A stretch of DNA of 64,000 nucleotides from Agelas oroides (Eukaryota; Porifera; Demospongiae; Agelasida; Agelasidae). The translations under genes were made by a program, and so were the position numbers. A model generated the notes under the pieces. That model saw only the letters and a list, made by a program, of their open reading frames with translations, made no database searches and had not been told where the DNA came from. How positions within the stretch are numbered: position 1 is the first letter of the stretch; every line of letters begins with the position of its first letter. Location: assembly GCA_949130485.1 (NCBI GenBank), contig OX422183.1, forward strand, positions 8,522,636 to 8,586,635. The letters are read 5' to 3'. Positions 1,948 to 57,122 of the stretch are shown piece after piece.

Positions 1948-4900
1948 ATATGATACATGTGCACATTGTCATACGATGTCACTCGTAGGCAAACATTAGT
2001 AAGAAACTCTGTCACATGCCGTCCATGTAGCTAGATACCTTCCCCCATTTCTCCTCTTCTTATTTGCCTTCTCCCATCCCCCACTTCTCTTTCCGTCCCA
2101 TGTCCCACCCTCTCTAACATTTTTATGATGTCACTGTCACAAGTGATTACAATACATCCCACCCGTATTAGCAAGCAAGCCAGATATACAATAGAACAGT
2201 GAGCATGATAACACAACTAGTGTGTGATAAACAATGGCATGTGCAGAATTTAACACAAAATCTTTGGTTGGTATTGTCATATTGTAGACTTTCATCAGTA
2301 TAATTTCTCTGATGAGGTTACATAATAATGTTGTTTCACTTGTTTATCTTCTTTTCCCACATGAACTGCTTCATTCCCTCCTACTCAGCGGGTAAGTTGA
2401 CTATTCAAATGATGCATGTGCACATTGTCCTACGATGTCACTCTAGGCAAACACACAACGATTAGTTAGAATCTCTGTCACTTGACGTCCATGTAGATAT
2501 TTGCCTTCTCCCATGTCCCTCTTCTCTTTCCCTCCCAAGTCCCACCCTCTTCCATGTCCAATCTAACATTTTATGATCTCACTATCACAAGATATTACAA
2601 TATCACCCACCCGTATTAGCAAACAAGCCAGATATACAATAGAACAGTGAGCATGATAACACAACTAGTGTATTATAAACAATGGTATGTGCAGAATTTA
2701 ACACAAAAATCTTTGGTTGGTATTGTCATATTGTAGACTTTCATCAGTATAATTTCTGTGATGAGGTTACATTGTCATAGAATGTCACTCCTAGACAAAC
2801 ACGCAACAATTAGTACGAGCCTCTGTCACATGCTGTCCATGTAGGTAGATACCTTTCCCCATTTTTCCTCTTCTTATTCGCCTTCTCCCATTCCCCACTC
2901 CCATCCCATCCCTCACTGTCACTACAATACCACCCATATTAGCAAACAAGCCAGATATGCATAAACAGTGAGCATGATAACACAACTCGTGTTTGGAAAG
3001 GCAATGGCATGTGCAGAATTTAACACAAAAATCTTTGGTTGGTTTTGTCATATTGTAGACTTTCATCAGTATAATTTCTGTGATGAGGTTACATAATAAT
3101 GTTGTTCACTTGTTTATCTTCATTTCCCACATGAACTGGTTCATTCCATCCTACTCAGTGGGTAAGTTGACTATTCGAATGATACATGTGCATATTGTTA
3201 TACAATGTTATTCATAGTCAAACACGCAACAATTAGTACGAAATTCTCACATACCGTCCATGTACGTAGGTAGATACGTTTCCCCATTTTTCCTCTTCTT
3301 ATTCACTTTCTCCCATCCCCCAATTCTCTTTCCCTCACATATCCAACCCTCTCTAACATTTAATGACCTCACTGTCACAAGAGATTAGAATTACCACCCA
3401 CCCGTATTAGCAAACAAGCCACATATACAATAGAACAGTGAGCATGATAACACAACTCGTGTTTGGAAAAGCAATGGCATGTGCAGAATTTAGCACGAAA
3501 ATCTTTGTTTGCTATCGTCATATTGTAGACTTTCATCAGTATAATTTCTGTGATGAGGTTACATAATAATGTTGTTTCACTTGTTTATCTTCTTTTCCCA
3601 CATGAACTGGTTCATTCCATCCTACTCAGTTGGTAAGTTGACTATTCGAATGATACATGTGCACATTGTTATACAATGTTACTCGTAGTCAAACACGCAA
3701 CAATTAGTAAGAAACTATGTCCCATACCGTCCATGTAGATAGATACTTTTCCCCATTTTTCCTCTTCTTATTCGCCTTCTCCCATCCCCTACTTCTCTTT
3801 CCCTCCCATATCCAACCCTCTCTAACATTTTATGATCTCACTGTCGCAAGAGATTAGAATTACCACCCACCCGTATTAGCAAACAAGCCAGATATACAAT
3901 AGAACAGTGAGCATGATAACACAACTCGTGTTTGGAAAAGCAATGGCATGTGCAGAATTTAGCACGAAAATCTTTGGTTGGTATCGTCGTATTGTAGACT
4001 TTCATCAGTATAATTTCTGTGATGAGGTTACATAATAATATTGCTTCACTTGTTTATCTTCATTTCCCACATGAACTGGTTCATTCCCTCCTACTCAGAT
4101 CGTAAGTTGACTATTCGAATGATACATGTGCATATTGTCATTCGATGTCACTCGTAGGCAAACACGTAATAATTAGTAAGAAACTCTGTCACATTCCGTC
4201 CATGTAGGTAGATACTTTTCCCCATTTTTCCTCTTCTTATTCGGATTCTCCCATCCCCCACTTCTCTTTGTGTCCCATGTCCAGCCATTTCTAACATTTA
4301 TGACCTCACTCTCACAAGAGATTACAATTACCACCCACCCGTATTAGCAAACAAGCCACATATACAATAGAACAGTGAGCATGATAACACAACTCGTGTG
4401 TGGAAAAGCAATGGCATGTGCAGAATTTAGCACGAAAATCTTTGGTTGGTATTGTCGTATTGTAGACTTTCGTTAGTATAATTTCTGTGATGAGGTTACA
4501 TAATAATGTTGTTTCACTTGTTTATCTTCTTTTCCCCCATGAACTGGTTCATTCCCTCCTACTCAGGCGGTAAGTTGACTATTCGAATGATACATAAGCA
4601 CATTGTTATACAATGTTACTCATAGTCAAACATGCAACAATTAGTAAGAAACTCTGTCACATACCGTCCATGTAGATAGATACTTTTCCCCATTTTTCCT
4701 CTTCTTATTCGCCTTCTCCCATCCCCCACTTCTCTTTCACTCACATGTCCCACCTTCTTCCATGTCCTGTCTGTCATTTATGACCTCACTGTCACAAGAG
4801 ATTACAATACCACCCACCTGTACTAGCACACAAGCCAGATATACAATAGAACAGTGAGCATGATAACACAACTCGTGTTTGGAAAAGCAATGGCATGTGC

Positions 4901-6750
4901 AGAATTTAGCACGAAAATCTTTGGTTGGTATTGTCATATTGTAGACTTTCATCAGTATAATTTCTGTGATGTGGTTATATAATAATGTTGTTTCACTTGT
5001 TTATCTTCTTTTCCCACATGAACTGCTCCATTCCCTCCTACTCAGGAGGTAAGTTGACTATTCATATGATATGTACATGTGCACGTTGTTATATGATGTT
5101 ACTCATAGGCAAACACGTAATAATTAGTACAAAACTCTGTCACATGGTGTCCATGTAGGTAGGTACTTTTCCCCATTTTTCCTCTTCTTATTCGCCTTCT
5201 CCCATCCCCCAATTCTCTTTCTCTCCCATATCCAACCCTCTCTAACATTTAATGATCTCACTGTCGCAAGAGATTAGAATTACCACCCACCCGTATTAGC
5301 AAACAAGCCACATATACAATAGAACAGTGAGCATGATAACACAACTCGTGTGTAGAAAGGCAATGACATGTGCAGAATTTAGCACGAAAATCTTTGGTTC
5401 GTTTTGTCATATTGTAGACTTTCATCAGTATAATTTTTGTTACATAATAATATTGATTCACTTGTTTATCTTCTTTTCCCACATGAACTGGTTCATTCCA
5501 TCCTACTCAGTCGGTAAGTTGACTATTCAAATGATACATGTGCACATTGTTATACAATGTTACTCATAGTCAAACACGCAACAATTAGTAAGAAACTATG
5601 TCCCATACCGTCCATGTAGATAGATACTTTTCCCCATTTTTCCTCTTCTTATTCGCCTTCTCCCATCCCCTACTTCTCTTTCCCTCCCATATCCAACCCT
5701 CTCTAACATTTTATGATCTCACTGTCGCAAGAGATTAGAATTACCACCCACCCGTATTAGCAAACAAGCCAGATATACAATAGAACAGTGAGCATGATAA
5801 CACAACTCGTGTTTGGAAAAGCAATGGCATGTGCAGAATTTAGCACGAAAATCTTTGGTTGGTATCGTCGTATTGTAGACTTTCATCAGTATAATTTCTG
5901 TGATGAGGTTACATAATAATGTTGTTTCACTTGTTTATCTTCTTTTCCCACATAAACTGGTTCATTCCCTCCTACTCAGCGGGTAAGTTGACTATTCATA
6001 TGATACATGTGCACATTGTTATTCGATGTCACTCGTAGACAAACACGTAATAATTAGTAAGAAACTCTGTCACATTCCGTCCATGTAGGTAGATACTTTT
6101 CCCCATTTTTCCTCTTCTTATTCGGATTCTCCCATCCCCCACTTCTCTTTGTGTCCCATGTCCAGCCATTTCTAACATTTATGACCTCACTCTCACAAGA
6201 GATTACAATTACCACCCACCCGTATTAGCAAACAAGCCAGATACGCAATAGAACTGTGATCATGATAACACAACTAGCGTGTGGAAAAGCAATGGCATGT
6301 GCAGAATTTAGCACAAAAATCTTTGGTTGGTATCGTCGTATTGTAGACTTTCATCAGTATAATTTCTGTGATGAGGTTACATAATAATGTTGTTTCACTT
6401 GTTTATCTTCTTTTCCCACATAAACTGGTTCATTCCCTCCTACTCAGATCGTAAGTTGACTATTCATATGATACATGTGCATATTGTCATTCGATGTCAC
6501 TCATAGGCAACCAAGCAGTATTTAGTAAGAAACTCTGTCACATGCAGTCCAAGTAGGTTGAAACTTTTCCCATTTCTCCTCCTCTTCTTATTCCTATTCT
6601 CCCACACCCCCACTTCTCTTTTCCTCCCATGTCCCACCCTCTTCCGTGTCCTGTCATCGCCTCACTGTCTCAAGAGGTTACAATACCACCCATATCGGCA
6701 GACAATAAAATAGACCAGTGCGCATGATAACACACAACTAGTGTGTGATG
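1948..6750 (+). repeat. Microexon-like tandem array, ~470-bp subfamily (9 triplets)
   Basis: Units of 465-479 bp, each with a pyrimidine-rich stretch ending CTACTCAG, three bases, then GTAAGTTGAC. Triplets by first base: 2389 CGG, 3159 TGG, 3630 TTG, 4099 ATC, 4567 GCG, 5046 GAG, 5511 TCG, 5980 CGG, 6448 ATC. Read as codons: R W L I A E S R I. Unit bodies differ by many substitutions and small indels, but the splice-site block is nearly unchanged. One unit around 2700-2790 has lost the splice block, so 2389 to 3159 is a double step. The array opens abruptly at 1948 inside a unit, next to a TE copy, so it may continue to the left of the window. Confidence 0.9.
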
Positions 6751-9700
6751 TTACATAATAATGTTGTTTCACTTGTTTGTCTTCTCTTCCCACATGAACT
6801 GCTCCATTCACTCCTACTCAGCGTGTAAGTTGACGATTAGAATGATACATGTGCACGTTGTCATACGTTACCACTCATAGGCAACCGTGCAGTATTTAGT
6901 AAGAAGCTCTGTCACATACGGTCCAAGTAGGTTGAATCTTTTCCCATTTCTCCTTCTCTTCTTATTCCTCTTCTCCCACCCACCACTTCTCTTTCACTCC
7001 CATGTCCCACCCTCTTCCATGTCCTGTCATAACCTCACTGTCTCAAGCGGTTACAATACCACCCATATCGGCAGACAAGCCAGATATAAAATAGACCAGT
7101 GCGCATGATAACACACAACTAGTGTGTGATAATTTCTGTGATGAGGTTACATGATAATGTTGTTTCACTTGTTTGTCTTCTCTTCCCACATGAACTGCTC
7201 CATTCACTCCTACTCAGCATGTAAGTTGACGATTAGAATGATACATGTGCACGTTGTCATACGTTACCACTCATAGGCAACCATGCAGTATTTAGTAAGA
7301 AGCTCTGTCACATACGGTCCAAGTAGGTTGAATCTTTTCCCATTTCTCCTTCTCTTCTTATTCCTCTTCTCCCACCCACCACTTCTCTTTCACTCCCATG
7401 TCCCACCCTCTTCCATGTCCTGTCTAACATTTTATAGCCTCACTGTCTCAAGAGGTTACAATACCACCCATATCGGCAGACAAGCCAGATATAAAATACA
7501 CCAGTGTGCATGATAACACACAACTAGTGTGTGATAATTTCTGTGATGAGGTTACGTAATAATGTTGTTTCACTTGTTTGTCTTCTCTTCCCACATGAAC
7601 TGCTCCATTCCCTCCTAATCAGGTGGTAAGTTGACTAGAATGATTTATGTGCACATTGTCATATGTTACCACTCATAGGCAACCAAGCAGTATTTAGTAA
7701 GAAACTCTGTCACATGCCGTCCAAGTAGGTTGAAACTTTTCCCATTTCTCCTCCTCTTCTTATTCCTCTTCTCCCACCCCCCCACTTCTCTTTTCCTCCC
7801 ATGTCCCACCCTCTTCCGTGTCCTGTCATAGCCTCACTGTCTCAAGAGGTTATAATACCACCCATATCGGCAGACAAGCCAGATATAAAATATACCAGTG
7901 CGCATGATAACACACAACTAGTGTGTGATAATTTCTGTGATGAGGTTACGTAATAAAGTTGTTTCACTTGTTTGTCTTCTCTTCCCACATGAACTGTTCC
8001 ATTCACTCCTACTCAGGATGTAAGTTGACGATTAGAATGATTTATGTGCACATTGTCACATGTTACCACTCATAGGCAACCAAGCAGTATTTAGTAAGAA
8101 GCCTTGTCACATGCCGTCCAAGTAGGTTGAAACTTTTCCCATTTCTCCTCCTCTTCTTAATCTTCCTCCCCCGCCCAATTCTCTTTCCCTCCCATGTTTC
8201 ACCCTCTTCCGTGTCCTGTCTAACATTTTATAGCCTCACTGTCTCAAGTGGTTACAATACCACCCATATCGGCAGACAAGCCAGATATAAAATAGACCAG
8301 TGCACATGATAACATACAACTAGTGTGTGATAATTTCTGTGATGAGGTAATGTTGTTTCACTTGTTTGTCTTCTCTTCCCACATGAACTGCTCCATTCAC
8401 TCCTACTCAGCCGGTAAGTTGACTATTAGAATGATACATGCACACATTGTCATACGTTTCCACTCATAAGCAACCATCTAGTATTTAGTAAGAAGCTCTG
8501 TCACATGCCGTCCAAGTAGGTTGAAACTTTTCCCATTTCTCCTCCTCTTCTTATTCCTCTTCTCCCACCCCCCCACTTCTCTTTCCCTCCCATGTCCCAC
8601 CCTCTTCCGTGTCCTGTCATAGCCTCACTGTCTCAAGTGGTTACAATACCATCCATATCGGCAGACAATAAAATAGACCAGTGCGCATGATAACACACAA
8701 CTAGTGTGTGATTATTTCTGTGATGAGGTTACATAATAATGTTGTTTCACTTGTTTGTCTTCTCTTCCCACATGAACTGCTCCATTCACTCCTACTCAGG
8801 CGGTAAGTTGACGATTAGAATGATACATGCGCACATTGTCATACGTTTCCACTCATAAGCAACCATCTAGTATTTAGTAAGAAGCTCTGTCACATGCCGT
8901 CCAAGTAGGTTGAAACTTTTCCCATTTCTCCTCCTCTTCTTATTCCTCTTCTCCCACCCCCCCACTTCTCTTTCCCTCCCATGTCCCACCCTCTTCCGTG
9001 TCCTGTACGTCATAGCCTCACTGTCTCAAGAGGTTACAATACCACCCATATCGGCAGACAAGCCAGATATAAAATATACCAGTGCGCATGATAACACACA
9101 ACTAGTGTGTGATAATTTCTGTGATGAGGTTACATAATAAAGTTGTTTCACATGTTTGTCTTCTCTTCCCACATGAACTGTTCCATTCACTCCTACTCAG
9201 ACGGTAAGTTGACGATTAGAATGATATATGTGCACATTGTCATATGTTACCACTCATAGGCAACCAAGCAGTATTTAGTAAGAAGCCCTGTCACATGCCG
9301 TCCAAGTAGGTTGAAACTTTTCCCATTTCTCCTCCTCTTCTTAATCCTCCTCCCCCGCCCAATTCTCTTTCCCTCCCATGTTTCACCCTCTTCCGTGTCC
9401 TGTCTAACATTTTATAGCCTCACTGTCTCAAGTGGTTACAATACCACCCATATCGGCAGACAAGCCAGATATAAATTAGACCAGTGCGCTTGATAACACT
9501 CAATTAGTCTGTGATAATTTCTGTGATGAGGTAATGTTGTTTCACTTGTTTGTCTTCTCTTCCCACATGAACTGTTCCATTCACTCCTACTCAGCGTGTA
9601 AGTTGACTATTAGAATGATACATGTGCACATTGTCATACGTTACCACTCATAGGCAACCATGTAGTATTTAGTAAGAAGCTCTGTCACATGCTGTCCACG

Positions 9701-11645: not shown

Positions 11646-11900
11646 TACACAGACCCCTTCCCTCTCTTGCGGAACGGGGTGTGGCCACGCTAAACTATCT
11701 TTTTGTATGCCCCCCGCCCCCCCCCCCCCCCCCCCCCTCCTTCAATCTCTGGATATGCCCCTGTTGTTGCTTGTGTGAAATATGTGATAGTTTGGAAGGT
11801 ATTAATGTGGCATTTTTGTGGGAGAGTTAGCTACATTGTACACACCACTGAGAATAGAAATGGTAGTGTTAGGCTCAGTGCATTGCGTGGCATGAATAAA
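11646..11900. other. Non-array sequence at the edge of the transposon nest
   Basis: The array stops at about 11645 within a unit (after TTTAGTAAGAAGCT). What follows has a poly-C run of roughly 30 bases around 11709-11738. No gene is recognised. Confidence 0.6.
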
Positions 11901-12847
11901 CAGTGGCGGATCTAGAAGTTTAGAAAGGGGGGTTCAGTCACCGGCTCGCGCGCCGGAAATTTTTGGGGTTGCCACGCCCACTTTCGGTCACGTGAATGCA
12001 TAACTCCCGGGGGTTGCTGGTGGCCTATGGGGGTTGCTGGTGGCCTATTGGTTAAAGCACTGGACTGCGGATCAAAAGATCCAGGGTTCCAGTCCCATTA
12101 GCAGCAGAGATTTATTTCTCTTCTGGGTGCACTCAGCCCTACCTCAAAAAAAATTTGAGTAGAAGGTTTTCCTTCGCGTCCTTCGGAGGGGACGTTAAGC
12201 CGTCGGTCCCGGGGAACCCCTTAATATTAACCTAAGTGCTATTGGGGATTTCCTCGTTAACTGGGTATCCCAGGAAAAACTATAAAAAATAAAAAAAATA
12301 AAAAATATAGCTGGAAGGCCGAACCGAGGGGTCCGTCACAAAAGAAATCTCGTACACTGTCCGACAGTGTTGTTTTAGTTAACTATAACTTTAACTAAAT
12401 ACATTTTAGTATGGCCTTTTTAAAATTTAGTTAACCAAAACTACAACTAACTAAAATTTTTTGCTAATATCCAAGAACATACAAGAGACCTGTCGGCAGA
12501 AATCCAAACTGAAATCCAGAAATCCAAACTGAAATCCAGAAATCCACTCTGAAATCCGAAATCCAAGTGAAATCCAGTGGATTTCGAAATCTCGTACGCC
12601 GAGGTGCGCCGTGGCGGACCCCTCGGGCCGAACTGAATATCTCGAAGCAACTCTAGGCCTAGTCAAACGTCTGGAGATCAGTAAGGAACTGATACGTGAG
12701 TGTGTAACTGTGCCTGGTTGTTGTTGCTGCATGCCACTGCTGCATAATCATTTGATGGACTCGTGCAGTTATGTACGCAAAATACATTACTAGCCGCCAA
12801 AGGGGGGTGCATTTGCACCCCCCTTACCCCCCCTAAATCTGCCACTG
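11901..12847. mobile_element. TIR DNA element carrying a SINE and a nested foldback
   Basis: Ends CAGTGGCGGATCTAG and (reverse) CAGTGGCAGATTTAG, about 15 bp of inverted repeat. The flanks share ATAAA (11896-11900 and 12848-12852), so the target duplication is at best 5 bp or decayed. Inside are a tRNA-derived SINE (12033-12309), a nested piece bounded by inverted CCGAGGGGTCCG motifs (about 12318-12630) and short 20-bp tandem repeats of AAATCC type at about 12497-12575. No transposase. Confidence 0.6.
12033..12309 (+). mobile_element. tRNA-derived SINE
   Basis: Head resembles a tRNA: A box TGGCCTATTGG at 12041, B box GGTTCCAGTCC at about 12085, and a GGATC-AAAA-GATCC stem between them. The body contains GGGACGTTAAGCCGTCGGTC at about 12189, resembling the conserved central domain of several metazoan SINE groups. 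It ends in an A-rich tail at 12275-12309. A 20-bp stretch around the A box is duplicated in tandem just upstream (12009-12048). A functional tRNA is unlikely because the head is part of this composite. Confidence 0.7.
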
Positions 12848-12852
12848 ATAAA

Positions 12853-13472
12853 ACTGCTACCATGAGCTTTGCTTTGGCAGAATGTGTATAGTACACTTTT
12901 GGTGAATCCCGAGTTGCATTCACATGATATATATTTAGCACATTATGATGACTAGGAGTGGAAACAGGTTGCAGGATACCCTAATATGGGAAGAAATTGC
13001 ATGCTACGTAAAAACTATATGTGAATGCGAAACAGTTCCTTTGGTTAAGTATTCCACTCACTTCAATGCAGTCCAACAAAACCACTAGTGTTTAATATCA
13101 TGAGCCACAAGTGTAGTTCAGTTGAGCATTAGAGGCTTCTTGTAGGAAGCAAGCAATGCCACCCTGGTCATTTACTAACTTGATGATCACTCACATTTGG
13201 TTTTGGTGAAGCTCACAACACCGTTCCACTACATCTACAACCTCAGCTCAGTTGTGTTAACTTGTTAGCTCATGCATCATTAGAAGCTATAGCTTGTAGC
13301 TTCTAATATTATTGAATGATTGCAATCATTTGACAATGACCACCTTGCAGGAATTTGTTTCCCACAGACCTAGTTTGCCAACACAGTGCATTGCAAGTGT
13401 TGCAAAACTCAGGTCTCTGTGATAAATGCATTATATGGGTATTTCCAAATTACAGTACCAATACAAGTTTCA
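12853..13472. other. Unannotated intronic or intergenic stretch
   Basis: No open frame of note, no clear repeat and no RNA gene recognised. Confidence 0.5.
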
Positions 13473-13583
13473 TAGCCTTGTTCCCAGGCCATTCCCGTGT
13501 TCAGTTTTTGATTGCTTGCAGTATGCAAACTGTAAGTGATCAAAAACTGGATGGTGACAATTAAAGGTCTGGGAACCAAGCTA
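13473..13583. mobile_element. TAGCC-type foldback MITE
   Basis: Begins TAGCCTTGTTCCCAGGCC and ends GGTCTGGGAACCAAGCTA, an almost complete palindrome with the arms continuing inward (CAGTTTTTGAT / ATCAAAAACTG). Same family as 13748, 14903, 15067, 53654 and 62474. Confidence 0.7.
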
Positions 13584-13747
13584 CTGGAACTGCTTTAACG
13601 ATTTTGCATTCCGGTGTGGGGGGGGGGGGCTGGGAACAATTAAGGCTAATGATATAGCAGGTTGTTTGAACTCAGAAATGCAAGGGATTTGCAGATTAAA
13701 AATGTATACACTATGATACCAGCTAGTAGTACATTACAGTCTGACCA

Positions 13748-13803
13748 TAACCTCATTCCCCGGCTCTCTTCACAAGTTGTGGAGAGAGCCCAGAACGAGG
13801 CTA
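13748..13803. mobile_element. Short TAGCC-type foldback MITE
   Basis: TAACCTCATTCCCCGGCTCT and its imperfect reverse complement ending GAACGAGGCTA enclose a 12-nt loop. The sequence between here and 14100 shows no recognisable gene; a 61-codon frame at 13880-14065 has no known relatives that I recognise. Confidence 0.6.
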
Positions 13804-14458
13804 AGCTATGTTCCACAACGAAATAGGATTAGTGCTGCATAACAAACTTATTCTCATCTCCAGACCAAGTTTTTAACGCATGGCCTCATTGAAGAATAGG
13901 GTCTTGACACCTTTACTGGAAAAACTGGGACCTAATTATAAAGTCTATTGGCATGTTGTTGCACGATCAAATTGTTTATACATCATCAAAGATAGCCAGC
14001 TTGCAGATTATTGGTTGCCAATGCTTATACCATCAGTAACTGATGAGTTTCCAATTAACACCTAAAATTCAGAGGCGCCTCTGCAATTTATGCTATCAGT
14101 AACTGAAAATGTGATAAGCTTCCAATTAACACCTAAAATAGTCTATCAAGCCAGACCATCTCTCACCCTCCTGAAAAGTGAGAGAGGGTCTAGCAGATGT
14201 TATTAGTATGCATGAGATGCTGACCAATCAGATCCATTTTGAGACAGTAGCAACACCTTGGCTTCAGTATCAGAGAGTCGGTAGACTCTCTATGTAGGGA
14301 TGGCACCGATGCGCAATATATGCAATACTTAAGCAAAAGCCGTATAACTTCACCACAAACGCGCCCAGGCTTCCTCTTTGAGTGCCTTTGTGATCAGCAA
14401 GACTGCGGAAGACAGCTAAACACAAAAGTGTGCGCTAGGAAAAGTGCCATTTTTCTTA

Positions 14459-14689
<231 letters not shown>

Positions 14690-14902
14690 TTTGTTCAAAC
14701 AGCAATAACTCAAAAACGGTTCAAGCACTCACCGTAATTTTAGCACGAAACTGATGCTTATCACAGTGCGGAGCTCTATGACCACTCAGCGTCTTCTTAG
14801 CTTCAAATTCACCCTGGTAAACAAAAGCCATTCACAACACTCTGAGGCTGCTGTGCGTTGCTTATGACGCCATTTTCTAATTGTGTACGCATGCGCACAC
14901 GA

Positions 14903-14952
14903 AGTCTCGTTCCCAGACCAAAGACCATGGTCATTGGTCTAGAAGCGAGACT
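14903..14952. mobile_element. Short TAGCC-family foldback
   Basis: AGTCTCGTTCCCAGACC and GGTCTAGAAGCGAGACT form inverted arms around a 17-nt loop. Related to the other foldbacks in this nest, with a diverged outer end. Confidence 0.5.
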
Positions 14953-15066
14953 AGTACACAAGCGAAATCGCCAGCGACACTATCATAAGTCTGCAGTCTA
15001 CTCCAACTCACTGCTTAAGTTGTTGAAGAGGTTCCGTATAACGTAATGCTACCAAGAGGGTCATAC

Positions 15067-15119
15067 TAGCCTCATTACCAGGCCATGTGGGAGGAGGAAG
15101 TGGCCTGAGAACGAGGCTA
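15067..15119. mobile_element. Short TAGCC-type foldback MITE
   Basis: TAGCCTCATTACCAGGCCA and TGGCCTGAGAACGAGGCTA face each other across about 15 nt. Confidence 0.65.
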
Positions 15120-15198
15120 CAGCCATGAGCTGCCAGTAATAAAGGTTGTGAACTTGTGGTACGTTTTAGGAAGACCCCCATGCACTAACTGTAGTGTG

Positions 15199-15307
15199 AA
15201 AAAGATGTAGGGATGGGGCTTTGCCAATATGTTGACCTTTGCTTTCATGCGTTTAATATCCCTACCTTGTTTGCCTACTTTTTGGCATGCCATCCCTACA
15301 TCTTTTT
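15199..15307. mobile_element. ATGTAGGGATG-type foldback MITE
   Basis: AAAAAGATGTAGGGATGG and CCATCCCTACATCTTTTT are inverted ends of a 109-bp unit. The same end motif recurs at 19611-19650 and around the 39498-41333 insertion, so this is a family. Confidence 0.65.
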
Positions 15308-15377
15308 ACATTTTTAATGTTTTTAAGTCTTGTATATGTAAGACTAATACTGGTGCAGTTTTAGGGCTGCAGATTAA

Positions 15378-18300
15378 GGTGGCGGCGGAAGTCACTCGGC
15401 GGAGGTTAACAAAAACATAAACCTGGGTTACAGTCAGGACTGGTGTTACTCCTAGTTTCAGGGTTAGGGTTTGGTTTAGGGCAATCTTGCTTTGCCTAAT
15501 TTTAAAAAAGGGTTTTAGTAGCTTATTAATATATTCATGACCCAAAATTGCCACTCGATGGACACATCTACATGCTCGCTGTAGGTAGCGTCCTAACCAC
15601 CAATGTATCTCAAATCAGTCTGTGCCAGCTTTTGTTCAGAGCTACTCTCAAAGTCAGGCTAGACTCATGTTTGTCACTACTCTTGGAATGGACAACTTTG
15701 ACTGCACCAAAATGAATGCACATTTTAAAAAATTCACAGCTTGTCTACGGGAGGAGCTCATTCACGAGTGGAAGCAAGCGTTACTAAAACTAAACAACTC
15801 ACGGCTCTGTTCCACACACAACCACTCTTCAGCTTTCTTCTCTACTGCAGCGTAGTACCAACGATCATAGATAATAGAGAAGGATATGGATTGGAAACGC
15901 AATGATTTCGTGTTCTATTCACGTTACGCATTATGTCGTTTTAGAATAGACAAGTGAAGCTACCAGAATTGACGAAAATCGCTTCTACAAGCTGTTCCTC
16001 GACCCAGGAGGTCTCACAAGACTTGAATAAAGCCGGCGTAGTGGCATTAAATTTGATCTAAATGGAACTCGACCAATTCTTTGCCTGGTATGCATTTCAG
16101 AGCGGCTTGTCAGCGTTCGAAAGCTACTATTGGAAGCTACTGCTCCGCCCCCTACTAGATCCACTGCTCCTTGCTAATGCCACGTTGCAACACAGTGAGC
16201 CCAGTACGAATTATATCTCTGATATGAAACCTTGGGAAGCTACCGTTACTGACTTGTAGTCCCACAAACACTTGTACCGTGTACCGTCTACAAAGCTGGA
16301 TTTCTCCCGGCCTATCATCCGTTATTTTTTGCCAATGCCATGTTGCAATACAACAGCTCCAGTACAAATTATATCTCTGAAATGGAACTTTGAGAAGCTC
16401 TTGATAGTGACTTGTAGTCCCACAAAGGTTTGTTTTGCCATTTACACATAAAAGGCTGGATTTCTCCCATCTTACACTGTTTATGGGGACTTGTTTTTAG
16501 CTTCGTACAATCTAACAATGCATGACAAATTGCATGATCCTACTAGCTGGTTCTGGTATAATGGCTACAGTCCCACAAAGGTACCGCATTCCTGTGATTT
16601 TCAATGCGTAACGCGTAACACGGATAAGATCAAAGGGCATGCCGCGTTCAGTATGGGCGTTAATGGCAGATTGATCACGTGAGTTACGTGCGTTTCCAAT
16701 CCATATCCTACTCTACTATCTATGCAACGATATATTGCGCATTCTAGTTAAAGCCCAGCCCAGCACTTGAAGCACCGGACCACGGTCACCTACTAGGCTT
16801 GGCATACGATCGCAAGGCCTGGGCCTACCCAATGAGTACAGCCTTGGCCACTGTGGCCTTTCTGCTGCTTCTAGACACAAGCTTGCTTTCACAAGCAGGC
16901 ATTACGCACTACTCACAGCTACTAACACTACAGCACTCTACTAAACTCCTTTTTTTTTTTCTTTTCTTTTTTAAGTCGATCTAAGCTTATCTTCAAAGTT
17001 CCGACCACCACATGAGGCACCCTGTATTTTTGAGGTTGACAAACCTGAAATCCAAGCTGATAGACTTCTTTGTCTTCTTAATCGGTTAGCAAATAGTCAG
17101 TTTTGGGAGTCTTCAACTGTTCTCGGTCCATATAATTGGGAATTTTCCCAGCTTCCTGTCGGCATTGGCATCCAATAATGCATCTATAATTGGCATCCAA
17201 TAATTTATAGTTGGCATCCAATAATGCAATTATAATTAAGTTAGTTAAGATGTGGCCTGGCAGAATCCCTGGTGTGGTGGTCGGAACTTTGAAGATAAGC
17301 TTAGCAGTGACTAGAGTGGTAACTGCATCCCAAGTGAAAAGTATCGGGTGTAGGTGGCAGGCCATTTCGTCCTACCCATAACAGACCATTGAGCAGATCC
17401 ACTAGAGGCACACACTTCCATGGTGCATGGTGAGCAAGCAGCAAGGGCACAAACTTTGACTAAGAGAAACCCACTAACTACACATAGTGTGGAAGCCTGG
17501 CTAGATTAGGGCAAAAGTGGAACAGGGAACAGGGGATTGGGGTTAGGTGCACAATCCAACTTCTAACATTACATAGTCATTGGGTGTAGAGTGAAGTGAA
17601 GCTTACTTGGTATTGCCAATTAGAAGAGGGGTGCTAATAGGTGGTAATTGAAGCCATGTAGAGGCAAGATGATACAAAGGCAGCCAACTTGCTGGGCAGA
17701 AGATGGCCATGCTACTGTTGTATGCATCTATATCTAAATTGTATAGAAAATAAGAACACCACACATATGCTATACTGAAAGACATCAGTCGGTGTTGTAA
17801 AGAAGCACCATTGCCATCAAAAGCTCTGTGGAGGCATGGCATGTGCTGTAGTGAGCAAGCCTGTAGCGAAGTGCGCACTTCACTTAAGTATCAAAGTGAC
17901 TCAGTGGCGTAGCCAGATTACAGTCGATGCTAGGGCACAGCGTGGGCACAGTACGTTTGTGGGAATTTCAGCGCAAAACGAAGGAACAAAGTTGGGGGGT
18001 AGGGGGGGGGGGGATGCTCCCCCAGAAAATTTTGGAATTTTTGAGCTTACCAGGTCAGTTCTGAGGCTATTTCAGGCCATACCATCGCCTTGAATCAGGA
18101 GCATTCCCACTATGCCGGATTTGTGCGTGGTGTAAAGTCGCTTCATTACTCACGGCAAACTCGCGTGCAGTGAGATCAGGGGAGAGTACGAGACTTCGTT
18201 ATAATAACAGTAAGTCTCGTACGCTCCCCTGATCCCACTGCACGCGATTTCTGAGGATACAGATAGCTATCTGCGCTGCTAGATTAGCACCCGATCGCGG

Positions 18301-19514
18301 TCGACAACGGCACTTTCGGCGTCGATAATTTGCAAGCGCGCCTGCAGTTGGTGGGGCACGGCCTCCAGTTACTGGGGCTACGCCACTGAAGTGACTTGTA
18401 GCTCAGTGTGGCTGTGCTGTATCGGTAATCTGCTACCAGAAAGTTGTAGCTAATAGACCTAGCTTGTTAACAGTGTACCTACCTTAGTTATTATGACAAG
18501 GCTCCAGACCTGCAAGTCAGGATGAAGTTTAGTGTGGTCACTGAAGTGTCAACGTTTTTGATCATAACTCAGGTTAGCAGTGGTTTAAAAAAAATATCGC
18601 ATACTCTCATTTTTGTTGACAAATGTATGGTTCTGTGGATTAGCTCTCGACCTTAGTGCTTGCACAGTAGATACTTCAATGATAACTTTTTCAAGCTGTG
18701 GTGTCAAACTTCCGTAAGTCCTCTCAGGCTTGGAAAGAAAGGCTAAAACATTGAACAGACACATGCACTTTTGTGGCTTTTCATTCATTCATTACTATTT
18801 CTTTCCACTTGGGGTGTAATTTGCAAAGAAGGAGTTTAGTAGAGTGCTGTAGTGTCAGTAGCTGTAGCTAGAAGCAGCAGAAAGGCCGCAGTGGCCAAGA
18901 CTGTGTTTGTTGAGTAGCCCTAGGTCTCGAAGCCATATGCCTAGCCTAGTTGGTGACCGTGGCCAGGTGCTTCAAGTGCTGGGCTGGGCTTTAACTAGAA
19001 TACGCAATATATCGTTGGTACTACGCTGTATTATCTATCGCCAAAGGAGGTGCAGAGTGGTTGTGTGTGGAACACAGCCGTGAGTTGTTTAGTGACACAA
19101 GGGGGAGAGGTGAGGCTAGTAATGCTTGCTTCCACTCATGAATGAGCCCCTCCCGTAGACAAGCTGAAAATATGCATTCATTGCAGTCAAAGTTGTCCAT
19201 TCCAAAAGTAGTGACAAACATGAGTCCAGCCTAACTTTAAGAGTAGCTCTGAACAAAAGCTGGCATCCAGTTGTATTGATTTGAGATACATTGGTGGTTA
19301 GGATGCTACCTACAGTGAGCATGTAGATGTGTCCATCGAGTGGCAATTTTGGGTTCATGAATATATTAAGAGCTACTAAAGCCCTTTTTAAAATTAGGCA
19401 AACTAAGATTGCCCTAAAGCAAACCCTAACCCAGAAACTAGGAGTAACCCTGGTCCTGACTGTAACTCAGGTTTAAGTTTTCGTTAACCTCCGCCGAGTG
19501 ACCGGCATGACACC
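15378..19514. mobile_element. 4.1-kb TTAA-flanked element with long inverted arms (copy 2)
   Basis: Flanked by TTAA at 15374-15377 and 19515-19518. The left arm (15378 to about 15860) and the right arm (about 19000-19514) are inverted copies of each other: both contain the CACTCGGCGGAGGTTAAC motif, the CAGTCAGGAC motif and the ACAACTTTGACTGCA region. The interior has a second inverted pair (16987-17015 and 17273-17301, AAGCTTATCTTCAAAGTTCC) and the hAT MITE at 17902. TTAA flanks suggest piggyBac-like mobilisation, but no transposase is visible. The interior 15870-16690 is unlike the other copies and has no recognised gene. Confidence 0.6.
17902..18388. mobile_element. hAT-type MITE (copy 2) with the same 8-bp target duplication
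   Basis: Same termini and same AAGTGACT flanks (17894-17901 and 18389-18396) as the copy at 266-777, so the two were duplicated with their host repeat rather than inserted twice. This copy lacks a short stretch near the right end (the repeated GTGCCCCAG part). Confidence 0.8.
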
Positions 19515-19598
19515 TTAAAAACTAAAAGAGATTTAGGGATACATGTAGTACACCAAAACGTACACAAACAAGGGAGGGGAGAGAAGGGAAATATATAA

Positions 19599-33600: not shown

Positions 33601-36600
33601 TTCGATGTCACTCGTAGGCAAACACGTAATAATTAGTAAGAAACTCTGTCACATTTCGTCCATGTAGGTAGATACTTTTCCCCATTTCTTCTTATTCGGA
33701 TTCTCCCATCCCCCACTTCTCTTTGTGTCCCATGTCCAGCCATTTATGACCTTACTGTCACAAGAGATTACAATTACCACCCACCCGTATTAGCAAACAA
33801 GCCAGATATGCAATAGAACTGTGATCATGATAATACAACTAGTGTGTGGAAAAGCAATTGCATGTGTAGAATTTAACACGAAAAGTCTTTGTTTGGTATT
33901 GTCATATTGTAGACTTTCAACAGTATAATTTCTGTGATGAGGTTATATAATGATATTGTTTCACTTGTTTATCTTCTTTTCACACATGAACTGGTTCATT
34001 CCATCCTACTCAGATCGTAAGTTGACTATTCATATGATACATGTGCACATTGTCATTCGATGTCACTCGTAGGCAAACACGTAATAATTAGTAAGAAACT
34101 CTGTCACATTTCGTCCATGTAGGTAGATACTTTTCCCCATTTCTTCTTATTCGGATTCTCCCATCCCCCACTTCTCTTTGTGTCCCATGTCCAGCCATTT
34201 ATGACCTTACTGTCACAAGAGATTACAATTACCACCCACCCGTATTCGCAAACAAGCCAGATATGCAATAGAACTGTGATCATGATAATACAACTAGTGT
34301 GTGGAAAAGCAATTGCATGTGTAGAATTTAACACGAAAAGTCTTTGTTTGGTATTGTCATATTGTAGACTTTCAACAGTATAATTTCTGTGATGAGGTTA
34401 TATAATGATATTGTTTCACTTGTTTATCTTCTTTTCACACATGAACTGGTTCATTCCATCCTACTCAGATCGTAAGTTGACTATTCATATGATACATGTG
34501 CACATTGTCATTCGATGTCACTCGTAGGCAAACACGTAATAATTAGTAAGAAACTCTGTCACATTTCGTCCATGTAGGTAGATACTTTTCCCCATTTCTT
34601 CTTATTCGGATTTTCCCATCCCCCACTTCTCTTTGTGTCCCATGTCCAGCCATTTATGACCTTACTGTCACAAGAGATTACAATTACCACCCACCCGTAT
34701 TAGCAAACAAGCCAGATATGCAATAGAACTGTGATCATGATAATACAACTAGTGTGTGGAAAAGCAATTGCATGTGTAGAATTTAACACGAAAAGTCTTT
34801 GTTTGGTATTGTCATATTGTAGACTTTCAACAGTATAATTTCTGTGATGAGGTTATATAATGATATTGTTTCACTTGTTTATCTTCTTTTCACACATGAA
34901 CTGGTTCATTCCATCCTACTCAGATCGTAAGTTGACTATTCATATGATACATGTGCACATTGTCATTCGATGTCACTCGTAGGCAAACACGTAATAATTA
35001 GTAAGAAACTCTGTCACATTTCGTCCATGTAGGTAGATACTTTTCCCCATTTCTTCTTATTCGGATTCTCCCATCCCCCACTTCTCTTTGTGTCCCATGT
35101 CCAGCCATTTATGACCTTACTGTCACAAGAGATTACAATTACCACCCACCCGTATTCGCAAACAAGCCAGATATGCAATAGAACTGTGATCATGATAATA
35201 CAACTAGTGTGTGGAAAAGCAATTGCATGTGTAGAATTTAACACGAAAAGTCTTTGTTTGGTATTGTCATATTGTAGACTTTCAACAGTATAATTTCTGT
35301 GATGAGGTTATATAATGATATTGTTTCACTTGTTTATCTTCTTTTCACACATGAACTGGTTCATTCCATCCTACTCAGATCGTAAGTTGACTATTCATAT
35401 GATACATGTGCACATTGTCATTCGATGTCACTCGTAGGCAAACACGTAATAATTAGTAAGAAACTCTGTCACATTTCGTCCATGTAGGTAGATACTTTTC
35501 CCCATTTCTTCTTATTCGGATTCTCCCATCCCCCACTTCTCTTTGTGTCCCATGTCCAGCCATTTATGACCTTACTGTCACAAGAGATTACAATTACCAC
35601 CCACCCGTATTAGCAAACAAGCCAGATATGCAATAGAACTGTGATCATGATAATACAACTAGTGTGTGGAAAAGCAATTGCATGTGTAGAATTTAACACG
35701 AAAAGTCTTTGTTTGGTATTGTCATATTGTAGACTTTCAACAGTATAATTTCTGTGATGAGGTTATATAATGATATTGTTTCACTTGTTTATCTTCTTTT
35801 CACACATGAACTGGTTCATTCCATCCTACTCAGATCGTAAGTTGACTATTCATATGATACATGTGCACATTGTCATTCGATGTCACTCGTAGGCAAACAC
35901 GTAATAATTAGTAAGAAACTCTGTCACATTTCGTCCATGTAGGTAGATACTTTTCCCCATTTCTTCTTATTCGGATTCTCCCATCCCCCACTTCTCTTTG
36001 TGTCCCATGTCCAGCCATTTATGACCTTACTGTCACAAGAGATTACAATTACCACCCACCCGTATTAGCAAACAAGCCAGATATGCAATAGAACTGTGAT
36101 CATGATAATACAACTAGTGTGTGGAAAAGCAATTGCATGTGTAGAATTTAACACGAAAAGTCTTTGTTTGGTATTGTCATATTGTAGACTTTCAACAGTA
36201 TAATTTCTGTGATGAGGTTATATAATGATATTGTTTCACTTGTTTATCTTCTTTTCACACATGAACTGGTTCATTCCATCCTACTCAGATCGTAAGTTGA
36301 CTATTCATATGATACATGTGCACATTGTCATTCGATGTCACTCGTAGGCAAACACGTAATAATTAGTAAGAAACTCTGTCACATTTCGTCCATGTAGGTA
36401 GATACTTTTCCCCATTTCTTCTTATTCGGATTCTCCCATCCCCCACTTCTCTTTGTGTCCCATGTCCAGCCATTTATGACCTTACTGTCACAAGAGATTA
36501 CAATTACCACCCACCCGTATTAGCAAACAAGCCAGATATGCAATAGAACTGTGATCATGATAATACAACTAGTGTGTGGAAAAGCAATTGCATGTGTAGA

Positions 36601-39497: not shown

Positions 39498-41068
39498 CAA
39501 GTCACAAAAAAGTTTGCCAAACGCAAACAAGCACATGTAGGGATGAAATCCTCAAAAACCAACCAAACAAGACGGGAACGACACCACAATACTTTTACAC
39601 CATCCCTACATCTTGTGCCATTTTGCCAAAACTGTGTGTTTGTATTTGTTTTTTAGTTGTGTGTAGAAGAGGGTTGTCTTGTAGATGGAAGGGTGTGGCG
39701 TGGGTGTGTTGTGCATAGTGAGTATGTTGTGTTGTTGGTGGTTGCTACTGAGTGTAGCAGGTATGGTCCAAGTTGTGTGTAGAAGGTGTGGAGTGAGTGA
39801 GGAGTGGTGAGTGTGTGTGTTATGTTGGAATGTGCATTATGTTGTTAAGTTTTATGCCTGTTTAGCATGATAGATATGGGTTGTCTTGTATACAGGTGGC
39901 TGTGAAGTGAGTAGTGGTAATTTTGTAATGCTTTGTGAAGGATGGGTTATTTTGTGAGATAGTTGAATGGAGTGAAGTACTATGTTTGTTTGTGGTTGGT
40001 GTGGGCTAATAAGTACAAATGTAGAGGGTTTTGTGTTGTGTACAGGTGGCAAAATGGCACAAGATGTAGGGATGGTGTAAAAGTATTGTGGTGTCGTTCC
40101 CGTCTTGTTTGGTTGGTTTTTGAGGATTTCATCCCTACATGTGCTTGTTTGCGTTTGGCAAACTTTTTTGTGACTTGTTTCTGTTGTTTTTTTGTTGTTG
40201 TTGTGTAACCACACCCCAAGTGAAATGACTTGTTATGTAGTTTATTGTTGATGTTGATGGATTTCTGGAGGATGTTAGCTGTTTGCACTTATCCACTTGA
40301 CAATGGAATCATGGGTGTAACTGTTGTCTAATTGGGTATGTGCATGTGTGTGTGAGTGGTTGTTCTAAGGCACTGTGGTATATACATGACTGTCTACCTG
40401 TTCTGTTGTATGACAGGGTTGTAACACTGTATGTTGTGTGTTGTCCAAGGAACAGTTTCTATAGCTGGTTATACATTGTGGGCAGGTGTGTGTAGGTTGT
40501 GTATGGTGGGTGGCAGGTACATAGGTCATAAAGAGGTAAGGCATAACTGTGGTAAAGGAACCCTTGGAGAGTAAGAGTGTTTTTCCGGGTTCTTCCAGTA
40601 CTTGTTACGGGACGCTTGCCTTTTGCTTTCTTTGTTTCGCAGATAGTTCTGCTTATCCCGCGCCCGTTTCTTGTGGACGTTACGCATACTGCGTTCCTTG
40701 TCAAATCCAGCACAAGTACGTCAACTGCTGTATGAAAGTAGCAACATATGCAATCGTTTGGGAATCAATCGATCGTCAAGTTCTCTACGGAAGTAGAATA
40801 ACCGCAGCTGCATGCCAACTTCACGTGCTGTAGCTGTTGAACTTCTGTTGACGTAATCGCTATGAATATTCTATTCTAACAAAATGGCGTATAGCAGCAA
40901 GCATAAGCGTGGGGTTACCTGAGAATCGCCGATTAATCCGACTTCTTTCTTTGAGAACGATGAGTGGTGGGTACAATACCCAGTAATTTATGCTGATCTT
41001 TCGCGTTTGAATCGTTGTAATAGCTTCAGCCGTTGTCGTGCTATCGTGGTGAGCAAAAGAAGAAGAAG

Positions 41069-45000: not shown

Positions 45001-47146
45001 GTAGGCAAACACGTAATAATTAGTAAGAAACTGTCAAGAGATTACAATACCACCCGCCCGTATTAGGAAACAAGCCAGATATGCAATAGAACAGTGACCA
45101 TGATAATACACAACTAGTGTGTGATAAACAATGGCATGTGCATAATTTGACACAACAGTCTTTGTCTGGTTTTGTCATATTGTAGACCTTCATCAGTATA
45201 ATTTCTGTGATGTGGTTATATAATAATATTGTTTCACTTGTTTATCTTCTTTTCCCACATGAACCGGTTCATTCCCTCCTACTCAGCGGGTAAGTTGACT
45301 ATTCGAATGATTCATGTGCACATTGTCATACAATGTCACTCATAGGCAAACACCCAAGAATTAGTACGAAACTCTGTCACATGCCGTCCATGTAGGTAGA
45401 TACCTTTCCCCATTTCTCCTCTTCTTGTTCGGCTTCTCCCATCCCCCACTTCTCTTTTCCTCCCATGTCCCACCCTCTTCCATGTCCTGTCTGTCATTTA
45501 TGACCTCACTCTCACAAGATATTACAATACCACCCACCCGTATTAGCAAACAAGCCAGATATGCAATAGAACAGTGAGCATGATAACACAACTAGTGTGT
45601 GATAAACAATGGCATGTGCAGAATTAAACACGAAAGTCTTTGGCTGGTATTGTCATATTGTAGACTCTCATCAGTATCATTTCTGTGATGAGGTTACATA
45701 ATAATATATTGTTTCACTTGTTTATCTTCTTTTCCCACATGAACTGGTTCATTCCCTCCTACTCAGCGGGTAAGTCGAATGATACATGTGCATGTTGTCA
45801 TACGATGTCACTCGTAGGCAAACACGTAATAATTAGTAAGAAACTGTCACATGCCGTCCATGTAGGTAGATAGTTTTCCCTATTTTTCCTCTTCTTATTC
45901 GCCATCTCTCGTCCCCCACTTCTCTTTCCCTCCCATATCCAACCCTCTCTAACATTTAATGATCTCACTCTCACAAGAGATTACAATTACCACCCACCCG
46001 TATTAGCAAACAAGCCAGATAATTATGCAATAGAACAGTGAGCATGATAACACAACTAGTGTGTGATAAACAATGGCATGTGCAGAATTTAACACAAAAA
46101 TCTTTGGTTGGTATTGTCATCTTCAACAGTATAATTTCTGTGATGAGGTTACATAATAATGTTTGTTTATCTTCTTTTCCCACATGAAAGAGAAGTGCTG
46201 GATGGGAGAAGGTGAATAAGGTAAGTTTCTTACTAATTATTACGTGTTTGCCTACGAGTGACATCGTATGACAACATGCACATGTATCATTCGACTTACC
46301 CGCTGAGTAGGAGGGAATGAACCAGTTCATGTGGGAAAAGAAGATAAACAAGTGAAACAATATATTATTATGTAACCTCATCACAAAAGTCTTTGGTTAG
46401 TATCATTGTATTGTAGACCTTCATCAGTATAATTTCTGTGATGAGGTTACATAATAATATTGTTTCACTTGTTTATCTTCTTTTCCCGCATGAACTGGTT
46501 CATTCCCTCCTACTCAGGATGTAAGTTGACTATTGAAATGATACATGTGCACATTGCCATACAATGTCACTCGTAGGCCAACATGCAAGAAATAGTAAGA
46601 AACTCTGCCAAATGCCGTCCATGTAGGTAGATACTTTCTCCGTTTCTTCTCTTCTTATTCACCTTCTCCCATCCCCCACTTCTCTTTCCCTCCCATGTCC
46701 TGTCCATCATTTATGACCTCACTGTCACAAGAGATTACAATACCACCCACCCGTATTAGGAAACAAGCCGGATATGCAATAGAACAGTGATACACAACTT
46801 GTGTGTGATGAACAATGGCATGTGCAGAAATTAACACAAAAGTCTTTGGTTGGTATCATTGTATTGTAGACTTTCGTTAGTATAATTTCTGTGATGAGGT
46901 TACATAATATTGTTGTTTCACTTGTTTATCTTCTTTTCCCACATGAACTGGTCCATTCGCTCCTACTCAGTCGGTAAGTTGACTATTAGAATGATACCTG
47001 TGCACATTGTCACACATTACCACTCAATAGCAGCATGCAAGATTTAGTAAAAAAAAAACTGTCACAAGTTGTCAAAGTAGGTTGATACTTTCCCCATTTC
47101 TGCTCTTCTTATTCCCCTTCTCCCATCCCCCACTTCTCTTTCCGTC
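45001..47146 (+). repeat. Microexon-like tandem array, divergent units with one inverted piece (4 + 1 triplets)
   Basis: Triplets on the + strand: 45287 CGG, 45767 CGG, 46518 GAT, 46971 TCG. Between the last two pairs lies an inverted fragment at about 46218-46384 whose minus-strand reading gives CTACTCAG, CGG (46300-46302), GTAAGTCG; it matches the 45685-45850 unit. One short unit (spacing 333 bp) precedes 45287. Confidence 0.88.
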
Positions 47147-53013: not shown

Positions 53014-53409
53014 ACCCCACTGTCCCAAGAGATTACAATACCACCCATATCAGCAGACAAGCCAAATATGCAATAGACCAGTGAGCATGATAACACACAA
53101 CTAGTGTGTGATAATTTCTGTGATGAGGTTACATAATAATGTTGTTTCTTGTTTGTCTTCTTTTCCCACATGAACTGGTCCATCCACTCGTACTCAGAAG
53201 GTAAGCTGACTATTAGAATGATTCATGTGCACATTGTCATACAATACCACTCATAGGCAACCATGCAGTATTTATTAAAAAAACTCTGTCACATGCTGTC
53301 CAAGTAGGTTGGTAATTTCTCCTCTTCTTTTTCCTTCTCCCGCTCACCGCTTCTCTTTCCCTCCCATGTCCCACCCTCTTCCGTGTCCTGTTTAACATTT
53401 TATGACCCC

Positions 53410-56240: not shown

Positions 56241-56564
56241 CAGGGTTTCATACAGGATTTTGAGTTGGGGGGGGGGGAAAACAGGATGGTAACAGGATGA
56301 TAGTAGCATGCGAAACGCGTGCGTGTCTACTAGGGGGGTCTGGGGGCATTTCCCCCCCAGGAAAATTTTGAATTTGCATCCTCTCAGATTGCTTCTTACG
56401 CAATCTCGGACAAAATTTCCAAACAACATTTTGATGACACATACTTATGTTCAGTAACATGTAAATAGCTGATATAATAATCATACTCAATTTCAAGATT
56501 TCTGGGCGGGGGGGGGGGGAGAAATCTAGTCCCCCACCCGTCCGCATCTCTGTATGAAACCCTG
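56241..56564. mobile_element. G/C-tract MITE, copy 8
   Basis: Same ends and site in the repeat unit; the copy closest to the constant exon. Confidence 0.75.
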
Positions 56565-57122
56565 ACCCCACTCTCTCAACAGATTACAGTAGCACCCATA
56601 TCGATAGACAAGCCAGATATGCAATAGACCAGTGAGCATGATAACACACAACTAGTGTGTGATAATTTCTGTGATGAGGTTACATAATAACGTTGTTTCA
56701 CTTGTTTCTCTTCTTTTCCCACATGAACTGGTCCATTTCGCTTCTACTCAGTTTGTAAGTTGACTATTACAATGATACCTGTACACATTGTCATACAATA
56801 CCACTCATAGGCAACCATGCAAGATTTACATGCCGTCCAAGTGGGTTGGTAATTTCTCCTCTTCTTTTTCCTTCTCCCACCCCCACTTCTCTTGCCCTCC
56901 CATGTCACACCCTCTTCCATGTCTAAGATTTTATACCCTCACTCTCTCAAGAGATTACAGTAACACCCATATCGGCAGACAAGCCAAATATGCAATAGCC
57001 CAGTGAGCATGATAACACACAATGAGTGTGTGATAATTTCTGTGATGAGGTTACATAATAATATTGTTTCACTTGTTTATCTTCTTTTTCCATATAGAAA
57101 GTGCCTTAATTTATTCCTGTAG

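Follow-up and report, generated by a model that had tools for sequence, protein, structure and literature searches.

Tandem arrays of putative one-codon exons with a hypervariable codon in the sponge Agelas oroides

Passages on the micro-exon genes (MEGs) of Schistosoma mansoni describe very short exons of 3–81 bp, long introns and splice variants (PMC10526429, PMC4015677), and exons of 81 bases in tandem repeats have also been recorded in these genes. In Drosophila, homothorax is described as carrying a single 3-nt microexon whose alternative splicing is conserved (PMC7392893). Mutually exclusive choice among exons of the Dscam type is reported to use pairing between docking and selector sequences in the RNA (PMC6071210). 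Ratchet points, as described in PMC8605326, consist of an acceptor followed by a donor; the donor is recreated after splicing, so that an intron is removed stepwise and 0 nt are left in the mRNA. Here we analyze a 64,000-nt stretch of the genome of the sponge Agelas oroides (assembly GCA_949130485.1, contig OX422183.1, positions 8,522,636 to 8,586,635; hereafter the window). It holds an array of 90 tandem cassettes, each of which resembles an exon of exactly one codon between two splice sites, upstream of a ZU5-domain gene.

Cassette arrays in the window and in the genome

A pattern search of the + strand of the window gave 88 exact CTACTCAGNNNGTAAGT sites, i.e. CTACTCAG-NNN-GTAAGT. In each cassette, a 3' splice site-like end (CTACTCAG) is followed by one triplet and then by the 5' splice site GTAAGT. 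A looser scan of the same strand with a unit core of 55 bases, 52 of them scored, and at most 20 mismatches yielded 90 units with 21 different triplets, namely the 88 exact sites and two near copies that depart from the motif at one or two positions, CTAATCAG-GTG-GTAAGT at 7615..7631 and GTACTCAG-AAG-GTAAGC at 53190..53206. An earlier note on this DNA had claimed 90 units on the gene's strand and 21 triplets, and both figures stand. Since the loose scan recovers the identical 90 units, searching for the motif cannot alone account for its conservation in the window. The array occupies 1948..57122 on the + strand. Its first putative one-codon exon is CGG at 2389..2391 (motif start at 2381) and its last is TTT at 56752..56754, while ATC at 34469..34471 is typical of a family of 455-nt units. 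A lone inverted unit (CGG) lies inside the array on the - strand at 46294..46310.

The units are mostly 330–490 nt long, 455 nt being the commonest length. The spacing of 330–480 nt given in the earlier note holds for most of the array, as 76 of the 89 inter-unit gaps correspond to introns of 330–499 nt, but not for the 13 gaps of at least 500 nt, nine of which measure 500–1000 nt and four more than 1 kb (8193, 2292, 1734 and 1544 nt). The long pyrimidine tract described there is indeed pyrimidine-rich ahead of the AG, but it is broken by a conserved CACATGAACTGG. When 103 columns were compared over the 90 units, the three triplet columns were the most variable, and columns -10 to -1 and +3 to +8 were invariant or almost so.

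A unit-free 8-kb stretch (11650-19700) that breaks the array contains a 221-nt TTCT microsatellite. Within this stretch, 14200-14460 is found again at 99.6% upstream of the window's own array (L050 6623-6883), and pieces of it occur at L047. An interspersed repeat at 39852-40214, within a 2-kb interruption of the array, has a 99% match downstream of the array on C17 (L043, 1755-2118).

The earlier note had proposed a search for further arrays, and these were found. Across the scanned genome (259 Mb in 141 contigs), CTACTCAG-NNN-GTAAGT occurs at 757 sites, compared with 2 for the pattern read backwards as a control, which is far more than chance would give. The array map was built from several sub-patterns, and the listed places cover part of the 757 sites; all but 3 of the listed sites group into 17 arrays, whose limits are approximate. 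On the + strand of C1 these lie at 1.097-1.119, 1.677-1.691, 1.776-1.788 and 8.410-8.445 Mb, together with the array of the window at 8.525-8.579 Mb. The - strand of C1 carries arrays at 5.383-5.395, 5.512-5.559, 5.645-5.651, 5.723-5.744, 5.874-5.937 (perhaps two arrays), 6.073-6.075, 6.138-6.148 and 6.205-6.2165 Mb. C9 has one array on the + strand (8.431-8.452 Mb) and two on the - strand (8.683-8.704 and 8.744-8.752 Mb), and C17 has one on the - strand (4.028-4.039 Mb). Decayed motifs are also present, for example in L059, L062, L065 and L067. At C1:5550001-5560000 (L053) the units form a higher-order repeat of tandem TTG-GAG-GAG three-unit blocks of 1393 nt, one of them with CGG replacing GAG. 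The motif was found 0 times in viral contigs and 0 times in GTDB genomes.

The distance between acceptor and donor is strictly three nucleotides. In the array DNA examined, GTAAG lies within 30 nt downstream of CTACTCAG or CAACTCAG at 180 sites, and the gap is exactly 3 in 180 of 180. A whole-genome search with CTACTCAGN{4,24}GTAAGT, covering 21 other gap lengths, gave 49 scattered matches (28 in the control) and none at array coordinates. A general surplus of 3-nt exons in this genome was ruled out, as the generic pattern of a strong acceptor, NNN and GTAAGT has 20 matches outside the arrays and 41 in the backwards control, and so shows no enrichment there.

Reading frame and the hypervariable codon

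The DNA upstream of five compared arrays has one element in common, a short putative start exon. In order, it comprises a tract of pyrimidines, the bases TAGCAG (replaced by CACAG in one copy), usually about 18 bases and then ATGAGTGAC (ATGGGCAAT in one), and it ends at a donor of the form GTATGT, GTGTGT or GTATAT. Ten copies were found in the genome, nine of which sit 0.3–7.5 kb upstream of a same-strand array. The copy belonging to the gene of the window lies outside it, at G000:C1:8518806-8518853, about 6.1 kb before the first unit (MSDSESSEDE, ...GAGGATGAG). The predicted peptides are MSDSESSEDE and MSDSEPSEDE (two copies each), MSDRESYEK, MSDRKPSHNQ, MSDRESSEK, MSDRVPRRQ, MGNGESSEK and MSRIELPEE. 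The coding part is 27 or 30 nt long, and all ten copies end in phase 0.

Two other candidates for the beginning of the gene were rejected. One was a longer exon upstream of the arrays; the other shared stretches there link two to four of the five loci and look like repeats. The second was an alternative first exon started by an ATG within the unit (ATGAACTGGTTCATT in the window), at which the Roc-COR units examined have a stop and the phases would mismatch.

At the other end of the arrays, the last unit is followed at 13 loci of the Roc-COR type (see below) by a predicted exon of 22–25 nt with a length of 3n+1, for example GAAAACAAGGG and GAACTGCAAGAGAAG. These acceptor exons would encode EQEEKKLK, EQREKKMK, ELQEKKMK, ALQEKKMK, ELQETKMK, VLQEKKMK, GREEKKLK, DPAERLQ or ETPEQRLQ. 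One acceptor search accepted 3n+1 lengths only, and a similarity search dropped that condition. With that of the window, 14 acceptor exons were found, all of which start in phase 0 and end in phase 1. The next exon, DYQEALKLGEVLVAYARVMMVGPGGVGKSS or a close variant, was seen at the 7 of the 13 loci where the sequence reached it, one of them with only its first bases covered. As it starts in phase 1, the short acceptor exon before it starts in phase 0. Thus, with a start exon ending in phase 0 and an acceptor exon starting in phase 0, each triplet would be one whole codon. The phases agree in 10 of 10 start exons and 14 of 14 acceptor exons, which are homologous copies and not independent of each other.

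The triplets behave as open codons in this phase. Among the 757 exact sites there is no TAA, no TAG and one TGA; this TGA lies outside the arrays, at C10:7817424, and the complete lists hold no other site on that contig. T opens 156 of the 757 triplets, 140 are NAG (CAG included), and 34 are NNA, including GAA, CAA, AAA, GGA, ATA and CGA; a rough expectation under independence would be about 36 TAG and about 6 TAA and TGA together. The sites are related by duplication and hence no p-value is attached to the stop deficit. All 20 amino acids are encoded in 203 array units examined, a set that includes the inverted unit of the window and excludes the unit at 53190.

In the same 203 units, AGN triplets are missing (0 against 7.8 expected) and GTN triplets are scarce (6 against 23), as if a new AG or GT beside the acceptor were selected against. 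A second AG after the CAG would compete with it, so the absence of AGN is in keeping with a splicing effect. An explanation of stop avoidance wholly by splice constraints was rejected, as both NNA and CAG triplets occur. CAG is a stronger competing acceptor than TAG, and CAG, GAA, AAA and GGA are tolerated despite possible competition from a second AG.

To follow the triplet through the duplication history, trees were built from the flanks alone and parsimony steps were counted for each column. For 89 units of the window, the triplet columns take 33, 26 and 15 steps, compared with a mean of 2.25 and a maximum of 12 in the flanks. For 199 pooled units with enough flank, the triplet columns take 76, 69 and 28 steps, compared with a mean of 5.5 and a maximum of 19. 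The fastest three-column window coincides exactly with the triplet in all six unit sets, which overlap (the window, its 455-nt family, three others and all pooled). With all units pooled, the 8 nt preceding the triplet change 0–5 times and the 5 nt following it 0 times, and the looser core scan of the window gave the same picture of conservation as the units chosen by motif. The third triplet base changes least, as expected from the genetic code and from its place at the donor's -1 position.

The changes also alter the encoded residue. Among 176 unit pairs with 400 identical flanking bases, 76 differ in the triplet and none of these synonymously; of 370 differing pairs with 1–6 flank differences, 12 are synonymous. 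In the 455-nt family, 20 units with identical flanks (150 + 150 nt) carry either ATC (12) or CTC (8), and most such pairs are of this ATC-versus-CTC kind within one family, hence few independent events. The roughly 106 inferred codon changes include 0.44 synonymous ones on average, against about 3.6% (about 4) if the existing codons were shuffled. For the roughly 33 single-base changes, 0.44 are synonymous against about 20% expected. These differences are evidence that the triplet codon is under diversifying pressure.

These features bear on two readings in which the triplet would not be coding. In one, which we regard as unlikely, the units are stepping stones or decoys for the recursive splicing of a very long intron, and the triplet is normally not kept in the mRNA. 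The adjoining acceptor and donor do resemble ratchet points, described as being spliced as 0-nt exons (PMC8605326), but the array sites hold 3 bases between AG and GT where a ratchet point has none. Furthermore, neither stop avoidance nor an excess of amino-acid-changing differences is expected of discarded sequence, and the short arrays of a few kb need no such help. In the other, which seems very improbable to us, the units are a satellite-like repeat with a mutation hotspot or recombination site at its core, and the likeness to splice sites is coincidental. Expansion as tandem and higher-order repeats would suit a satellite. The units nevertheless sit on the same strand between a conserved start exon (nine arrays) and a coding acceptor exon (14 loci), with agreement of phase, stop avoidance and conservation of both splice-site sequences, and the 20 matches outside the arrays do contain stops: TAG 4 times, all from one shared sequence that is a repeat, and TGA once.

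Together, the strict 3-nt length, the conservation of the splice sites, the matching phases of start and acceptor exons, stop avoidance, hypervariability and the recurrence of arrays at 15 Roc-COR genes argue for the one-codon microexons that the earlier note had suggested. Several observations weigh against this. Units and exons are duplicated copies, and the stop, codon-change and phase counts are accordingly not independent. The units of the tree test were chosen by motif, which partly builds in the conservation of the splice bases. In three of the six sets, some flank columns change at least as often as the third triplet column does (6 of 360 columns in the 455-nt family, 91 of 351 in an 18-unit set and 25 of 263 in a 29-unit set). 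One reconstruction has 108 codon changes, of which 73 affect 2 or 3 bases; such frequent multiple changes suggest that the counts are inflated by gene conversion or by errors in the tree. Competition from a second AG may explain part of the TAG and NNA deficit. Triplet use in the window is uneven, with ATC in 28 and CTC in 12 of the 88 exact sites. The genome search gave no start-exon copy for 8 of the 17 arrays, and the acceptor exon is absent from 4 of 8 further stretches, in or beyond which the units continue. The acceptor exon of the window was identified by its phase and the look of its splice sites alone, and it is unmatched upstream of the seven nearest ZU5 paralogues, some of which share a segment among themselves. 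Finally, a distant Roc-COR gene, described below, could be the real or former partner of the array.

Downstream genes and a possible splicing route

The earlier note had placed the array upstream of a ZU5/death-domain gene, and such arrays are not confined to genes of that kind. At E up to 1e-30 (58 of 278 candidates scored), a search with one Roc-COR exon found 17 close genes, and 15 of the 17 lie directly downstream of a same-strand array. Three Roc-COR exons were compared with Pfam, and all three match Roc and COR-A; the single following exon examined, at L044, matches a Death domain (PF00531, E 5.8e-7). The 16th gene, C9:9310038, has a start exon upstream and no exact unit among the matches listed. 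This start exon (C9:9279263, L058) lies 31 kb before the gene, with no exact unit listed between them; the first 2.3 kb of the interval were read. The locus is possibly an array-less ancestor, or one whose array has been lost or has diverged. The 17th gene, C1:8628654, lies beyond the array and the ZU5 gene of the window. The - strand array at 8.683-8.704 Mb on C9 is without a Roc-COR gene among the 17 found. When the Roc-COR exon was used in a protein search, 886 of 8000 scored candidates were related to it; a P-loop pattern is present in 37 of the best 120 of these 886, and where these 37 extend upstream of the pattern the sequence reads intron-like by eye. None of the 120 supplied transcript evidence.

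In the window, the proposed acceptor exon is GAAAACAAGGGAGCTACAAGAG at 57123..57144 (+; ENKGATR + G), which starts in phase 0 and ends in phase 1; an alternative end at about 57204 likewise keeps phase 1. It joins in open frame to a ZU5-domain exon at 57744..58303 (+; PF00791, E 4.1e-7) that starts in phase 1. The seven nearest ZU5 paralogues are 59–77% identical and have an acceptor at the matching place, consistent with phase 1. A Death-domain exon is weakly indicated at 59792..60095 (+; PF00531, 19.7 bits against a Pfam cut-off of 22.6). An exon at 60325..60428 (+) carries a hydrophobic stretch, GGIICVLVLVLLAGFGMWYLLV, which, judged by eye, may be a C-terminal membrane anchor. The ZU5 exon has 150 matches in the genome, with pieces of one gene counted apart, and so belongs to a large expanded family. 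A tandem array of a 55-nt unit at 63419-64000 runs past the end of the window.

The array thus lies upstream of a ZU5 gene with a weak Death match, and a second possible partner lies further on. The Roc-COR gene at C1:8628654-8630896 has an acceptor exon of its own (C1:8626248; L067 548-572), about 47 kb past that of the window, and the ZU5 gene sits between it and the array. The last unit before this Roc-COR gene has lost its donor (CAATTCAGGAAATAAGT), and the gene match holds six stops compared with 0–4 in the other Roc-COR genes (introns counted in), so the gene may be decayed. The array probably served the Roc-COR gene first, with the ZU5 gene now lying between them, and the ZU5 gene seems to have become a partner of the array later.

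A 3-nt exon is too small for both splice-site complexes to assemble on it simultaneously. As the two sites could not be bound together, inclusion should be stepwise. In the reading to which we give about as much credence as doubt, each unit is an intron plus a one-codon exon, and zero to several codons are included stepwise. The start exon would join a CTACTCAG acceptor somewhere in the array, and the joined triplet would recreate a donor, NNN|GTAAGT, at the end of the growing 5' exon. This donor would in turn be spliced to a unit further along the array or to the final acceptor exon. As any unit could be skipped or used, the mRNA would contain zero, one or a few codons in array order, which would place a variable tail at the N-terminus of an immune-type signalling protein, either Roc-COR-Death or ZU5-Death. 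The route would be a variant of recursive splicing that leaves one codon behind at each step.

It is tempting to speculate further, as a tentative extension, that the arrays generate somatic diversity through RNA. The ratchet would pick a random subset, kept in array order, of up to 90 single codons, so that the N-terminal peptide carried by death-fold GTPases and ZU5-Death proteins would be particular to each mRNA or cell, and strong diversifying selection or a dedicated mutation process would keep the codons changing, as in an immune or self-recognition repertoire. We infer the splicing of the exons, its stepwise route, the number of codons included and such a diversifying role from the features described above.

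How many codons would be included bears on two further readings. A doubtful but coherent one is that each mRNA takes exactly one one-codon exon, chosen in a mutually exclusive manner with an outcome like that of Dscam, so that a single residue near the N-terminus is hypervariable. It fits the same evidence on frame, stops and hypervariability, a fixed protein length would tolerate an array of any size, and many joined codons from the I/L-rich window would give an implausibly long hydrophobic stretch. However, the splice sites do not differ in kind or phase, and nothing seen forbids two inclusions. In a limited test of one unit against two candidate stretches, docking duplexes were no stronger than shuffles: the observed duplex energy was reached or beaten by 40 of 40 shuffles for the start-exon intron and by 32 of 40 for the stretch before the acceptor exon. 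Since no docking or selector pairing appeared in this limited test, we favour inclusion of a variable number of codons over a strict choice of one among many.

At the other extreme, all units would be joined constitutively in series into one long peptide, which we find quite implausible. Some arrays do read as a charged helix running into the acceptor exon, such as that at C1:1.1 Mb (...EEKKWLREEN, then EQEEKKLKDYQEALKL). By contrast, the window would give about 50 mostly I/L residues in a row, broken by two PR pairs and a few others. Block duplications such as the three-unit repeats of L053 would keep altering the length of the protein, and it is difficult to believe that nearly 100 splicing steps of 3 nt would be carried out without error in every mRNA.

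Comparison with known systems

We know of no system that combines an exon array, one-codon exons and a hypervariable codon, and none is described among the papers listed by searches of an open-access library. If the exons are spliced, protein diversity would be made one amino acid at a time, with the codon as the unit of the array and all 20 residues available. The spliceosome would have to handle long runs of 3-nt exons, and selection could act on single-codon cassettes. This would be a new route to a repertoire beside gene families, V(D)J-type recombination and arrays of large exons, and the arrays recur across the Roc-COR GTPase family of a sponge, an animal without adaptive immunity.

Dscam1 resembles the arrays described here in having tandem cassettes at one point of a gene and diversity by cassette choice. 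Dscam exons encode parts of Ig domains and number about 12–48 per cluster. The present arrays differ in their 3-nt exons, in comprising up to 90 of them, and in showing no docking pairing in the limited test above. The schistosome MEGs share with them many tiny exons and protein variants made by splicing. In contrast, MEG exons vary in length and make up most of the coding sequence, their products are secreted, and the passages of PMC10526429 and PMC4015677 describe no one-codon arrays with a hypervariable codon between conserved flanks; here the exon length is fixed at 3, and the remaining protein is encoded by large Roc and COR, Death or ZU5 exons. Ratchet points, as described, leave a 0-nt exon with AG abutting GT, whereas 3 nt are held between the sites in 180 of 180 cases here. 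The homothorax microexon of Drosophila shares with these arrays an exon of one codon; it is a single exon at one fixed place, without an array or diversification.

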